64,000 nucleotides of DNA, from assembly GCF_001689125.2 (NCBI RefSeq), contig NZ_CP015405.2, positions 1,393,001 through 1,457,000 on the forward strand, in the 5' to 3' direction. The notes under the pieces are model-generated. The model ran no database searches, was not told where the DNA came from, and worked only from the letters and a program-made list of their open reading frames with translations. Source of the DNA: Blautia pseudococcoides. GTDB lineage: Bacteria > Bacillota > Clostridia > Lachnospirales > Lachnospiraceae. The position numbers were made by a program, and so were the translations under genes. This document shows positions 49,775-53,760 of this stretch, one piece after another (position 1 is the stretch's first letter; the number at the start of each line of letters is the position of its first letter).

Positions 49775-50968
49775 TCACTCCTTAAAACAGTTAAATAGCT
49801 TAAAGCAGACAGAGATAGTAAGGACCAGAGTACCTGCACCTATGAGAAGGTACTGTACAGGAATATGATCAGCCAGAGGACCGAAAAATATCATGCCAAG
49901 AGGCAGCGCGCAGGAGGTGGAAATCTGCATGAAGCTGAAAATCCTGCCGTGCATATCCGGCTCCACTTTTTCCTGAATGGTCACATTGATGGGTGTGTTG
50001 TAGCAGGGAGAGGTAACGCCTATCATGGTATTCATGATCAGATAACCAATAAATACATGGGCTGTTCCCAGGCCGATCATAATTGTCCCATAGACTCCAC
50101 CGGCCAATAGCGTTGTGTGCAGATGATGTTTAAACCCGCCCCAGGAAGCGATCAGGATTCCCCCCAGCACCATGCCAAGGCTGTAAGTCATTTCACTTAC
50201 AGTGAGCCGCCAGACTTCCGGTCCAAAGGTCCTGCTCACCATAAGGGGTGTCAGAAAGGCGGAGGGGCTTATGAGAAACAGGATGATAATCTGAAACACC
50301 AGCAGTTTTCTGATAAAAGCATTGTTTCTGAGGTAAAAAATACCACCAGCTATTTTATGCAGACCGGATTCCTTGTCTGCGGATGATTTTGTGTAGGGCG
50401 GTATTTTTATGGTGGAAGTAAGGCTGATACCGATAATAGCTGTTATGACGTCAATAAAGAGCGCTGCTTCCAAAGGCGCTGCGGAGAGGATGGCACCTCC
50501 GGCAGCAGGTGATAAGAACATCATGAAGGAGGACAAGGTGCTGTTGAGTCCGTTCATTTTCATGAGATGTTCTTTGGGAACAAGCTGCGGAAAAATAGCG
50601 TTCACCGCAGGGGTCTGGATGCCGGTCCCGGCTGATCGGATGATCAGTACAGCAAACAGAAACCAGATGTTTTTATGTCCTGCCAGGAAGGTAAGGGACA
50701 GCAAAAGTGTGGAACACGCAATGGCACCATCTGAGAGCATGATCAAGAACTTCCTGTCATAACGGTCAATCCATACTCCCGCGAAAAGTGAAATGATGAT
50801 CTGGGGAAGGAATCCGCAGAGAGTGGAGATGGTCAGCATCTTTCCTGAAGATGTTGTCAGTGTAATATACCAGACAATGGCGTACTGCACCAGGGAAGAA
50901 CCGAACAGGGAGATAGTCTGGGCTGTTAAAAATCGAAAGGTTTTCCCTTTCCATGTGTTTAAATCCAT
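49775..50968 (-). CDS. MFS exporter, Mef/enterobactin-exporter-like
   Basis: 397 residues with about 12 membrane segments: 'FGSSLVQYAIVWYITLTTSS', MFS motif A region 'GVWIDRYDRKFLIMLSD', 'AVNAIFPQLVPKEHLMKMNG', 'MHGRIFSFMQ'. It is the MFS_3 group that includes Mef macrolide pumps. ATG 50968 follows AAGAGG; the frame stays open to 51196 but that part overlaps an attenuator and has no ribosome site. A leader peptide, alternative hairpins and a terminator precede it, which strongly suggests drug-inducible expression. The substrate is not known. Confidence 0.85.
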   Translation of the reverse strand: MDLNTWKGKTFRFLTAQTISLFGSSLVQYAIVWYITLTTSSGKMLTISTLCGFLPQIIISLFAGVWIDRYDRKFLIMLSDGAIACSTLLLSLTFLAGHKNIWFLFAVLIIRSAGTGIQTPAVNAIFPQLVPKEHLMKMNGLNSTLSSFMMFLSPAAGGAILSAAPLEAALFIDVITAIIGISLTSTIKIPPYTKSSADKESGLHKIAGGIFYLRNNAFIRKLLVFQIIILFLISPSAFLTPLMVSRTFGPEVWRLTVSEMTYSLGMVLGGILIASWGGFKHHLHTTLLAGGVYGTIMIGLGTAHVFIGYLIMNTMIGVTSPCYNTPINVTIQEKVEPDMHGRIFSFMQISTSCALPLGMIFFGPLADHIPVQYLLIGAGTLVLTISVCFKLFNCFKE

Positions 50969-51046
50969 AATATAATACCTCTTTCTAAGAAATAATGAAA
51001 TCTGCTGCTGCCTGTACACGGTATCGAAATGTCTCTGCCGGGCAGC

Positions 51047-51078
51047 AAAAAAGGCAGAGGACATTATAAGCCTCTGCC
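51047..51078 (-). terminator. Attenuator terminator before the MFS gene
   Basis: On the minus strand GGCAGAGG (51078-51071) pairs exactly with CCTCTGCC (51060-51053) over 10 nt, followed by TTTTTT (51052-51047). It lies 79 nt before the MFS start and after the leader ORF, with no gene to terminate. Confidence 0.85.
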
Positions 51079-51147
51079 AGTCAGTCTGCAGACAAAAGGC
51101 TGTGGCGAACACATCGCCGCAGCCAGATACAGAACTATGATATCCAC

Positions 51148-51262
51148 GGAAAACAGGTACACAAATAAACGCATCAGAAAATCTGATACGAGGCACAACT
51201 GTTTTCCGGTGAATGCAGCAGTTCTGCCGCTATCTGAACTCCGTACAATGTCTCACCGGAAA
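51148..51262 (-). promoter_or_regulatory. Mutually exclusive hairpins in the MFS leader
   Basis: Segment 51253-51262 (TTTCCGGTGA on the minus strand) pairs exactly with 51203-51212. Segment 51199-51207 (GGAAAACAG on the minus strand) pairs exactly with 51148-51156 (CTGTTTTCC). The pairs share 51203-51207, so only one can form at a time. The first segment lies inside the leader ORF. This is the expected geometry of ribosome-stalling attenuation. Confidence 0.75.
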
Positions 51263-51319
51263 CGTTATCTGTACGGAGCTGATTCGTCTTCTCAATTTAT
51301 CGGTTAAAATGAAATTCAT
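51230..51319 (-). CDS. 29-residue leader peptide of the MFS gene
   Basis: ATG at 51319 has GAGGTGGA 6 bp upstream. The peptide starts MNFILTDKLRRRISSV and ends at a TAG at 51230. It contains K-L-R and R-R-R, which match the +X+ arrest motif known from macrolide-induced ribosome stalling (for example RLR in the ErmD leader). Stalling there would cover the first hairpin arm downstream. Reading frame, ribosome site and position are visible; the inducer is inferred. Confidence 0.7.
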   Translation of the reverse strand: MNFILTDKLRRRISSVQITFPVRHCTEFR

Positions 51320-51360
51320 AATATCCACCTCATTTGGATCATCCTTGTATCTTATCAATT

Positions 51361-51390
51361 AATATAGCATGTAAAAAAGTTCCTTGTCAA
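51361..51390 (-). promoter_or_regulatory. Promoter of the MFS leader transcript
   Basis: On the minus strand TTGACA (51390-51385), 18-bp spacer, TATATT (51366-51361), about 40 nt before the leader ATG. Confidence 0.7.
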
Positions 51391-51414: not shown

Positions 51415-51568
51415 GGAACAAAATATATATTTTACTCGAAGTGAGTTTACTGAATACAAAAGAAAGAGTTCTGTTTAACGCGGATATGGCACCTCAGGTG
51501 TCATATCATTCAAGAATTCTTTTTTCCAGGGTGCTACAATAGTGAAAAGGAAAGGAGGAGGACAAAAG

Positions 51569-52432
51569 ATGCACGCAGAACAAGAACAAAGGCATGTGTA
51601 TTATGACCATGACCTGGAGATAGAGGCTTATAATTTGAGCGGTATTGTCCAGAAATTTCCAAACCATTTTCATGATTATTATGTGATCGGGTTTGTGGAG
51701 GGAGGTAAAAGGCATCTCTGGTGCAAAGGCAAAGAGTATGATCTGACCGCAGGGGATTTGATCCTGTTTAATCCCAGAGATAACCACTACTGTGCACCCA
51801 TCAATGGTGAAATATTAGATTACCGTGCTGTGAATATTAATGTGGACGTGATGGAAAGAGCAGTCAAAGAAATTACAGGTAGGGATTTTGTCCTGCATTT
51901 TACCAGCAACGTGGTGTATCAAAGTGACATTACACAGTCCATCGGTGATTTGTATGATGCCATCCTTACCCACGCACCTAAACTGAAAAAGGAAGAGGCG
52001 TTTTTCTTCCTTCTGGAGCAGATCCTGCAGGAACATGCAGCTCCTTTTGATGAAATTGATATATCAGAGCCAAATCAGCAGATCAAGACACTCTGTCATT
52101 ATATGGAGAAACATTTTTCCGAGAATATTACGCTGGATGACCTGCTTTCCATGACAAGTTTCGGCAAATCGTATCTGCTGCGTTCTTTTACAAAGCAGGT
52201 AGGTGTTTCACCTTACCGCTATCTGCAGACCGTGCGCCTGGAAAAAGCAAAAAAGTTTCTGGAACAGGGCGTGGCGCCTATTGATGCGGCAGATATGGCG
52301 GGGTTTGCGGACCAGAGCCATTTTACCAACTTTTTCAAAGAATTTATCGGACTGACACCAAAACAGTATCAGAAAATCTTTACGGATAAACCGCTGCCTG
52401 TCACTCCGGCAAAGGAGTGGACAAATGAATAA
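51569..52432 (+). CDS. AraC-family regulator with cupin sensor
   Basis: 287 residues. An N-terminal cupin ('FPNHFHDYYVIGFVEGGKRH', 'YDLTAGDLILFNPRDNHYC') precedes the AraC DNA-binding domain ('ITLDDLLSMTSFGKSYLLRS', 'APIDAADMAGFADQSHFTNF'). ATG 51569 follows GGAGGAGG. It overlaps the EamA gene by 8 bp and probably regulates this operon. Confidence 0.9.
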   Translation: MHAEQEQRHVYYDHDLEIEAYNLSGIVQKFPNHFHDYYVIGFVEGGKRHLWCKGKEYDLTAGDLILFNPRDNHYCAPINGEILDYRAVNINVDVMERAVKEITGRDFVLHFTSNVVYQSDITQSIGDLYDAILTHAPKLKKEEAFFFLLEQILQEHAAPFDEIDISEPNQQIKTLCHYMEKHFSENITLDDLLSMTSFGKSYLLRSFTKQVGVSPYRYLQTVRLEKAKKFLEQGVAPIDAADMAGFADQSHFTNFFKEFIGLTPKQYQKIFTDKPLPVTPAKEWTNE

Positions 52433-53354
52433 GACAATACATGGGCATATTGCTGCCTTTCTTACCATATTAATCTGGGGCACCACCTTTATTTCCACCA
52501 AGGTGCTTCTCAGAAGTTTTGAGCCGGTGGAGATTTTATTTATCCGTTTTATGATTGGATACATTGCTCTTTGGTGTGTCTGCCCGCGCAGGCTGAACAT
52601 CAGTGAGAGGAAACAGGAGTGGTACTTTGCAGCCGCGGGGCTTTGTGGCGTGACCCTGTATTACCTGTTTGAAAATATAGCGCTGACTTATACACTGGCT
52701 TCCAATGTGGGTGTTATTATTTCTATCGCGCCATTTTTTACGGTTATATTCTCCTGCTTGTTTCTGCATGACGGACGGCCAAAAACAAGGTTCTTTGCCG
52801 GCTTTTTAATAGCACTTACAGGTATTTTCCTGATCAGCTTCGGAGGGGTTAAGAATCTGCAGTTAAATCCTACGGGGGATTTGCTGGCTGTGATAGCGGC
52901 AATGATTTGGGCCGCGTTTTCAACGATCACAAAAAAAATCAGTGGGTTTGGATATAATACCATTCAGACTACAAGGCGGACGTTTTTTTATGGGCTGATC
53001 TTTATGGTTCCGGCTTTGCTCCTGATGGATTTTCATATTGAACTTATGCAGTTTGCCAGTCTTAAAAACGTTCTGAATCTTCTGTTTTTGGGATTTGGGG
53101 CTTCTGCATTATGCTTCGTGACATGGAACCTTGCCGTGAAGATCCTGGGCTCTGTGAAAACCAGTGTTTATATCTACATGGTACCTGTCATCACAGCAGT
53201 CACATCAGCACTTATTTTACATGAAAAATTAACGATGACAATTATTCTGGGTATTCTACTGACCTTGATCGGCCTCTTTTTATCTGAGGACAGAAAAACA
53301 GAGAAAACTACAGCAAAAGCAAAGGAGTATAAGATATATGCAGGCACAAAATGA
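52425..53354 (+). CDS. EamA-family (DMT) transporter
   Basis: 309 residues, ten membrane segments in two EamA repeats ('ILIWGTTFISTKVLLRSFEP', 'AAMIWAAFSTITKKISG', 'SALCFVTWNLAVKILGSVKT'). These export amino acids, metabolites or drugs. It is translationally coupled to the AraC gene upstream and overlaps the DUF2000 gene by 17 bp. Confidence 0.9.
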   Translation: MNKTIHGHIAAFLTILIWGTTFISTKVLLRSFEPVEILFIRFMIGYIALWCVCPRRLNISERKQEWYFAAAGLCGVTLYYLFENIALTYTLASNVGVIISIAPFFTVIFSCLFLHDGRPKTRFFAGFLIALTGIFLISFGGVKNLQLNPTGDLLAVIAAMIWAAFSTITKKISGFGYNTIQTTRRTFFYGLIFMVPALLLMDFHIELMQFASLKNVLNLLFLGFGASALCFVTWNLAVKILGSVKTSVYIYMVPVITAVTSALILHEKLTMTIILGILLTLIGLFLSEDRKTEKTTAKAKEYKIYAGTK

Positions 53355-53760
53355 TAAATGCGTCATGGTACTGGACAAGGACCTGCCTCTGGGCATTCTG
53401 GCAAACACAGCGGGAATCATGGGAATCACGCTGGGAAAACACATCCCTGAGACGGTGGGAGCGGATGTCCTGGATAAGAGCGGAAAAGAACACCTGGGAA
53501 TCATTGAATTGCCGGTTCCCATCCTGAAAGCAGACCGGGAAAAAATCAGGGAGATCCGAGAGCAGCTCTTCCAGCCGGAATTCGCTGATCTGATCGTGGT
53601 TGATTTTTCAGATGTTGCACAGAGCTGTAATGTCTATGAGGAGTATATTAAAAAAGCAGCAAGGGTGGAGGAAAAAGAAATGACTTACTTTGGTATCGGA
53701 ATCTGCGGAGCCAAAAAGCTGGTCAATAAACTCACAGGCAGCCTGCCGCTGTTGAGATAG
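53338..53760 (+). CDS. DUF2000 family protein
   Basis: 140 residues: 'DKCVMVLDKDLPLGILANTA' at the N-terminus, 'HLGIIELPVPILKAD' in the middle, and 'YFGIGICGAKKLVNKLTGSL' at the end, the pattern of DUF2000 (peptidyl-tRNA hydrolase-like fold). The function is unknown. DUF2000 genes often follow AraC or EamA genes, and here the three overlap, so they likely act together. Confidence 0.82.
   Translation: MQAQNDKCVMVLDKDLPLGILANTAGIMGITLGKHIPETVGADVLDKSGKEHLGIIELPVPILKADREKIREIREQLFQPEFADLIVVDFSDVAQSCNVYEEYIKKAARVEEKEMTYFGIGICGAKKLVNKLTGSLPLLR

Follow-up and report, generated by a model that had tools for sequence, protein, structure and literature searches.

Our analyses have identified a conserved, probably regulatory leader before the gene for a Mef-like exporter of the major facilitator superfamily (MFS) in Blautia pseudococcoides, within a 64,000-nucleotide (nt) stretch of contig NZ_CP015405.2 (assembly GCF_001689125.2, positions 1,393,001 to 1,457,000), which is referred to throughout as the window. 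This leader carries a member of the orphan RNA family uup RNA (Rfam RF03060), and the element is probably a ribosome-sensing transcription attenuator, of which the uup RNA would be the central hairpin seen without its context. Comparison of related loci reveals a leader half that, judged by its sequence, is translated and selected, a preferred spacing between its start codon and the uup hairpin, co-varying helices (designated A, B, C, and E), and downstream genes of resistance type, and it makes likely both the existence of a real, conserved, and translated attenuator in this orphan family and the function proposed for it here. The features of the window locus are as follows.

51361..51390, minus strand: promoter-like site, TTGACA at 51390-51385 and TATATT at 51366-51361, with an 18-nt spacer, 11/12 matches, and a TG upstream
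51326..51331, minus strand: Shine-Dalgarno (SD) sequence GAGGTG of the leader open reading frame (ORF), from the sequence
51230..51319, minus strand: leader ORF, 29 codons including the stop, MNFILTDKLRRRISSVQITFPVRHCTEFR, its start codon 41 nt before hairpin A
51238..51288, minus strand: match to RF03060 uup RNA, inside the 3' part of the leader ORF
51239..51278, minus strand: hairpin A (the uup hairpin), a1 (51278-51270) with a2 (51247-51239), from an inverted repeat and covariation
51203..51262, minus strand: stem B, b1 (51262-51253, within the loop of A) with b2 (51212-51203), perfect, from family tests
51147..51208, minus strand: hairpin C, core 51208-51199 with 51156-51147, perfect and exclusive of B, from family tests
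51163..51190, minus strand: pause-like hairpin (51190-51170) followed by TTATTT (51168-51163), in the loop of C, fitting the NusG TTNTTT motif
51244..51256, minus strand: e1, 5' arm of the proposed antiterminator helix E, comprising the 3' part of the uup loop and 4 nt of a2
51104..51118, minus strand: e2, 3' arm of helix E, in the apical part of T1
51098..51124, minus strand: terminator-like hairpin T1, followed by TTTTGTCT, from family comparison
51047..51078, minus strand: terminator T2, hairpin 51078-51053 and T6 at 51052-51047, from the sequence
49775..50968, minus strand: MFS exporter, Mef-like, 397 amino acids, with the SD-like sequence AGAAAGAGGTAT at 50986-50975

The assignment to uup RNA rests on the covariance model, which gives the window leader 45.7 bits against a gathering score of 36.8, and RF03060 is the sole Rfam family to reach its gathering score anywhere in the window. 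The same hairpin and flanking bases are found in the window leader as in the family, whose model spans only 48 nt and contains neither the leader start nor stems B, C, and E nor the terminators. The usual position of uup RNA before an ABC-F (uup-type) gene is not seen in the window, where an MFS gene follows instead; because membership rests on the RNA model, this downstream gene does not exclude it. The family was reportedly first described in a 2017 survey of 224 candidate RNAs. An earlier reading of the window from its sequence alone (the sequence-only reading) did not recognise the leader from known mef or erm leaders, and its 3' part has now turned out to be RF03060. The promoter, SD sequence, 29-codon ORF, two mutually exclusive perfect stems (B and C), and T6 terminator described in that reading are all present on the minus strand, except that the stems overlap, as 10-mers, over 51203-51208 and not 51203-51207; the uup hairpin (51278-51270/51247-51239), the hairpin at 51124-51098, and the pause-like hairpin at 51190-51170 were absent from its list.

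The RF03060 model matched (E <= 0.001) 15 of the 391 genomes drawn from the class, 13 of 299 from the family, 4 of 398 from the phylum, and 4 of 20 from the genus, as well as 15 of 71, 24 of 245, and 2 of 13 genomes from three further families (designated G122, G764, and G042, respectively); these draws of genomes overlap, and a few of the matches fall under the gathering score. The G122 family appears to include Clostridioides and the G764 family appears to be the Paenibacillaceae. None of the control genomes (14 per run) gave a match. A DNA-pattern scan of genome contigs yielded 86 stretches, of which seven were kept as further uup loci (L028, L040, L053, L060, L065, L076, and L081; among them Paenibacillus oralis, P. 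macerans, a Cohnella, and Blautia parvula, the last being L081), the others being set aside from their loop and surroundings, without an Rfam scan. The resulting 79 loci were reduced to 77 by dropping two poor matches (L114 and L128) and then to 65 by removing 12 near-duplicates (at least 93% ungapped identity), related loci that differ by an insertion or deletion being retained; for cluster tests, one locus was taken per cluster of 75% identity. The 5.13-Mb genome of the window itself holds a second uup RNA at C1:2237292 (L002:1453-2400, about 2237240-2238190), before an ABC-F gene. A search of plasmid DNA with one related leader, L105, and not with that of the window, gave no match at E 1e-3, and three pattern matches in viral contigs matched no Rfam family at E 0.5. 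A review places uup RNA before the gene CD3359 of Clostridioides difficile (PMC11477304).

The leader ORF is, by its sequence and substitution pattern, a translated one with a ribosome-binding site. The distance from the start codon to the first base of hairpin A is exactly 41 nt in 62 of the 77 loci (ATG in 56, GTG in 5, and TTG in 1), and this exact spacing holds for 51 of the 65 near-duplicate-free loci and 11 of 19 clusters. Starts were picked by a script that weighed the SD sequence, an ATG, and an ORF reaching a1, so that the ribosome-binding site of at least four matching bases in 75 of 79 loci contributed in part to the choice of start. Over codons 2-13, the ratio of nonsynonymous to synonymous differences (pN/pS) is 0.37 in frame vs. 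0.80 and 1.03 when the frame is shifted (22 pairs, with no locus used twice), and the differences at codon positions 1, 2, and 3 number 43, 42, and 70. From the hairpin onward the corresponding numbers are 17, 18, and 17 (12 pairs). A selective codon pattern before the hairpin and equal variation after it imply that the peptide is selected before the hairpin and that the Rfam motif itself is constrained as RNA. The ending MK-H/R-C-x-E was accordingly rejected as a conserved peptide, being mainly an RNA constraint because the codon positions there vary equally. Preservation of frame across the uup loop was also dropped as evidence of coding, the loop being 19 nt long in 47 of the 65 loci, 19+3n (22, 25, or 28) in nine, and of other lengths (16, 17, 18, 20, or 23) in nine. 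Several types of leader peptide recur. Peptides of the LYIK..KLV type are found in the G764 and G122 families, ahead of ABC-F and also of MFS genes. ABC-F genes are also preceded by MNFxLTDQxKKKxN, the MFS gene of Blautia relatives by MNFILTDKLRRRIS, and MATE genes by HPKNKLN.

The helices of the leader co-vary. Two-sided changes occur at five of the nine pairs of hairpin A (pairs 3-7, in 1, 29, 8, 12, and 1 of the 65 loci). For B, C, and E, the mean pairing energy of each arm with its own partner was compared with that for partners from other loci (kcal/mol, 20,000 permutations), and no permutation equalled the observed value for helix E (-9.84 vs. -8.07, standard deviation (sd) 0.28; 44 distinct pairs), stem B (-10.5 vs. 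-9.4, sd 0.23; 42 distinct pairs), or stem C (-17.1 vs. -11.0, sd 0.42; 53 distinct pairs). Because relatedness of the loci inflates such a result, the tests were repeated with one locus per cluster, giving 1/20,000 for E (13 clusters; also 1 with 16, when loci with a misassigned T1 were kept), 46/20,000 for B (19 clusters), and 0/20,000 for C (14 clusters). Stem B is the weakest, with two-sided change beyond wobble at three pairs, one of them in 5 of 64 loci and the other two in one locus each. In helix E, the 3' portion of the uup loop and the start of a2 pair with the apical part of T1, about 100-150 nt further on, and the T1 loops change together with e1 (AACATTGT with ACAATGTT in Lachnospiraceae, AAGCGTTGT with ACAACGCTT in Paenibacillus); hairpin C can form alongside E and brings the arms of E closer to each other. 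An accepted T1 hairpin with a T-rich tail is present in 53 of the 65 loci, and a second hairpin with a T-rich tail was picked in 50 of these 53, several of the picks being poor or in coding sequence. In 35 of 57 loci (16.7 expected, sd 2.9), the loop of C contains the motif TTNTTT, often after a small hairpin. The window locus has five perfect 9-mer inverted pairs, compared with 0.2 on average and at most 4 in 1000 dinucleotide-shuffled sequences, and folding of the 351-nt leader gives z = -7.2. The promoter-like site alone is not above chance in its region (two sites found vs. 2.6 expected); among the 65 relatives, 37 have a promoter of at least 9/12 matches ahead of the leader ORF (mean 4.4 and maximum 8 in 50 base shuffles). 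The sequence-only reading had staked its translated leader, switching stems, and terminator before the exporter on conservation in relatives, as one half of its refutation test, and that half has been survived, the arrangement being conserved with covariation.

The genes that follow the 65 loci are 40 ABC-F, 12 MFS, 7 MATE, one of the metallo-beta-lactamase fold, one GNAT, and four matching no reference protein, two of which lie at contig ends; the MATE proteins were assigned by family search and the metallo-beta-lactamase-fold and GNAT proteins recognised from sequence. The 12 uup-linked MFS proteins share at least 59% identity with that of the window, and a dropped locus, L114, also has an MFS gene downstream. 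Within the genus, 3 of 20 genomes encode an MFS protein at least 85% identical to it, and all three carry the leader; no uup RNA is found near the gene of a 52% identical MFS protein of Peptoclostridium acidaminophilum. The window protein scores 250 bits against TIGR00900 (cut-off 319.6) and 198.7 bits against the Mef(A) NCBIfam model (cut-off 675), and is thus related to Mef(A) and not a member. Two 420-residue ABC-F fragments have as their best match a ribosomal-protection-like ABC-F model, under its full-length cut-off.

Switching between the helices was computed for the 53 loci with an accepted T1, a ribosome at codons 14-15 being represented by a mask over everything up to a1+15 and E being counted as formed from five pairs upward. 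When the transcript ends in the T1 loop, E forms in 53 of 53 loci with the mask vs. 18 of 53 without it. When the window transcript is folded to the end of T1, masking of a1 lowers T1 from 9.7 to 2.1 expected pairs and raises E from 0 to 9.1. Among unmasked transcripts with full T1, E forms in one of 53, viz. L065. A scan of ribosome positions over 29 loci, hand-picked from the 53 and with codons numbered as if the start were at -41 (untrue for a few), predicts E in 26-29 of the 29 with the P-site at codons 11-17 and in 9-13 of the 29 at codons 1-9; in the window, E is absent at codons 1-9, partial at codon 10, and fully productive at codon 11. The footprint used, -14 to +15, is an assumption; a toeprint lying 16 nt past the start codon has been reported (PMC9226507). 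In computed folds, A, E, and T1 thus behave as a mutually exclusive anti-antiterminator, antiterminator, and terminator. Stem B was rejected as the main switch, being scarcely populated in nested folds of the stalled state (pseudoknots not computed).

From these results we infer the following order of events. By default, hairpin A would hold e1, the nascent RNA would fold into A, C, T1, and T2, and transcription would stop before the pump gene. Under induction, for which a ribosome-targeting drug is the supposed trigger, a ribosome stalled close to where the selected part of the peptide ends (P-site at about codons 11 to 17) would cover a1, so that A is blocked and e1 is free to pair, as helix E and with C folded inside, with the rising arm and loop of T1 once these have been transcribed. 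With E formed, T1 would be absent and polymerase could run on, T2 presumably being passed as well. Stem B, whose arms b1 and b2 lie on either side of a terminating ribosome, would take up part of e1 and may serve as a lock favouring termination after full translation, and TTNTTT would make the polymerase pause and so hold it in step with the ribosome. The mechanism offered by the sequence-only reading is in outline the same, with the differences that the likely antiterminator is E and not B and that the two stems it named probably do not form the main switch.

A number of observations weigh against this reading. On the coding side, the signal of selection ends at the hairpin, the frame is lost in the loop in L012, L013, L113, L130, L143, L145, and L149-L153, and the chosen ORF lies in another frame in L016, L065, and L127. 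Among the helices, pair 6 of A is non-standard in 17 of the 65 loci; T1 was not found in six (L002, L013, L015, L110, L135, and L076) and was misassigned in six others (L009, L108, L113, L127, L131, and L152), which were retained in the permutation test of E and work against its result; and the loci are related, so that permutations ignore their descent and the cluster test corrects for it only roughly. The T2 loop does not clearly co-vary with e1 (751/20,000); a pairing of the two, hinted at by an inverted repeat in the window, was for this reason rejected as a family trait. In the folding computations, E is predicted without a ribosome on the unfinished transcript in the 18 loci given above, which implies that A is not always a tight lock. 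Once the full T1 is present it beats E almost everywhere even under the mask, E persisting in 3 of 53 loci (the window, L005, and L006). Since T1 usually wins at equilibrium, antitermination by E must, outside these three exceptions, be kinetic. When the 5' mask is extended to a1+21, the window too keeps T1 (9.6 pairs), and the full transcript of L065 goes the wrong way, with 9.9 pairs of E unmasked and 0.2 masked.

Four other explanations were considered, and the weights we give them exclude neither one another nor the attenuator. The downstream gene might be controlled mainly through its translation or the stability of its mRNA and not through termination. The cplR system of C. difficile mixes translational and transcriptional attenuation (PMC10201436), but the SD sequence of the window pump lies after T2, outside the described stems, and T1 (53/65) and the second T-tailed hairpins (50/53, several of them poor picks) recur, so that we regard this explanation as unlikely. 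Slightly less likely still is a leader that senses amino-acid shortage or slow codons and not a drug. Three successive arginine codons (AGA AGA CGA) stand just before a1 in the window leader, many leaders are rich in lysine and arginine, and the whiB7 upstream ORF (uORF) reportedly responds to starvation for amino acids as well (PMC12121999); the position of the basic stretch is, however, not common to the leaders, and most of the downstream genes are of resistance and not of biosynthetic type. That uup is a ligand-binding, riboswitch-like RNA with an incidental overlapping ORF would agree with its curation by Rfam as a cis-regulatory RNA and with the lack of protein-type constraint in the half that Rfam models, but this is improbable given the protein-type substitutions upstream, the preferred start spacing, the ribosome-binding site, the resistance genes of unrelated families downstream, and the downstream pairing partners of much of the conserved sequence. 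A plain, unregulated terminator region between divergent genes, suggested by the AraC-type gene that diverges upstream and by the commonness of intergenic terminators, is highly improbable in view of four co-varying helices and a selected leader in loci from several families.

For the drug-sensing attenuator, the peptide sequences bear on the question of its inducer. The sequence-only reading had drawn attention to the +X+ arrest motif (R/K-X-R/K) of macrolide stalling, which is indeed present in the window leader (K-L-R and R-R-R) and fails as a rule for the family, being found in 24 of the 65 leaders (8 of 12 before MFS, 10 of 40 before ABC-F, 4 of 7 before MATE, and 2 of 6 before other genes). 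It may still apply to the window's own subgroup: all six retained Lachnospiraceae MFS leaders (L001, L111, L113, L115, L156, and L157) have the motif, and the dropped L114 lacks it in an ORF picked by eye. In the window, a +X+ stall at R10-R11-R12 would fall on codon 11. The leader peptide MTASMRLR is required for macrolide induction of mef(E) (PMC4335068), and a peptide close to it, LTASMRLRFSPFIR, precedes the gene of a 47% identical MFS protein in Niallia taxi. Our best guess for the trigger of the window MFS gene, by this analogy only, would be a macrolide.

A wider interpretation is that uup is a transferable sensor module, in which one RNA switch (A, B, C, E, T1, and the pause site) serves resistance genes of three or more unrelated kinds (ABC-F, MFS, and MATE) and interchangeable leaders of about 14 residues, tuned to different drugs, sort these drugs by the position of arrest. 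On this interpretation, the usual 41-nt distance would mean that uup reads elongation stalls at codons 11-17 and ignores start-codon stalls. Near-identical LYIK..KLV leaders before both MFS and ABC-F genes (e.g., L132, L133, and L154, and L131 and L135) speak against drug-tuned leaders, and we advance this interpretation tentatively, as one that may well prove wrong.

It is well established that ABC-F and mef genes can be controlled by ribosome-mediated attenuation (PMC4335068, PMC9226507, PMC10201436, PMC12121999, PMC10314930, PMC4191407), and the ilvB-II motif provides a precedent for a "structured RNA" that proved to be a uORF (PMC10272879). As described, the nearest systems differ from uup in their geometry. 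The vmlR leader of Bacillus subtilis (ABC-F; pleuromutilin, lincosamide, and streptogramin A (PLSA) drugs) likewise has a uORF, an anti-antiterminator, an antiterminator, a terminator, and a NusG TTNTTT pause, but its three-codon uORF is arrested at initiation whereas the uup model needs a stall at codons 11-17 (PMC9226507; compared by description only); a ribosome on the start codon of a uup leader does not reach A. The bmrCD leader of B. subtilis, a near system known through the same paper (PMC9226507), is likewise set beside uup by description only. The streptococcal mef(E)/mel leader (MTASMRLR) is also a leader-peptide transcription attenuator before an MFS macrolide pump, with only eight codons and one terminator, and with a peptide and architecture unlike those of uup (PMC4335068). 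The cplR leader of C. difficile shares an ABC-F gene, a uORF, and premature termination, but has a three-codon MRI uORF, an SD sequence sequestered by the terminator, and a stall thought to fall just after initiation, unlike the uup geometry; its gene, CDIF630_02847, is another ABC-F than the uup-associated CD3359 (PMC10201436). A literature search covering titles, beginnings of abstracts, and passages, with subscription papers outside its reach, found no paper linking uup RNA with a leader peptide, and searches with the leader peptide strings gave nothing relevant.

The attenuator proposed here provides a testable function for an orphan RNA family of Blautia relatives, other Clostridia, Paenibacillaceae-type genomes, and (according to the review cited above) C. 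difficile. The conserved element grows from 48 nt to some 220-300 nt, the helix expected to carry the decision is named, and the codons of stalling are predicted; if correct, the proposal tells when ABC-F, MATE, and MFS resistance-type genes are switched on in these bacteria.

Several further observations were made at individual loci. At the second uup RNA of the window's genome, L002, about 560 nt separate the hairpin from the ABC-F gene, much more than usual, and a peptide similar to that of L002 is found in a relative of the genus (L158). Leaders of uup type stand before an apparent metallo-beta-lactamase-fold protein and an apparent GNAT acetyltransferase in L013 and L127, which possibly represent further resistance functions. 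An MFS gene on a megaplasmid of Niallia taxi (L175:627-671), whose product is 47% identical to the window pump, is preceded by the leader LTASMRLRFSPFIR, of mef/msr/ermK type and close to MTASMRLR, so that homologous pumps have different leaders. In L146, a pause-like hairpin with a TTATTTT tail is tandemly duplicated within the loop of C (between its arms c1 and c2). A small hairpin seemingly lies at or adjoining the leader stop codon in the window (51230-51215), and many loci seem to have one, as judged by eye, in the same interval between a2 and b2. On the plus strand of the window, 51542-53760 holds the divergent gene for an AraC-type regulator and, downstream of it, genes for an EamA transporter and a DUF2000 protein.
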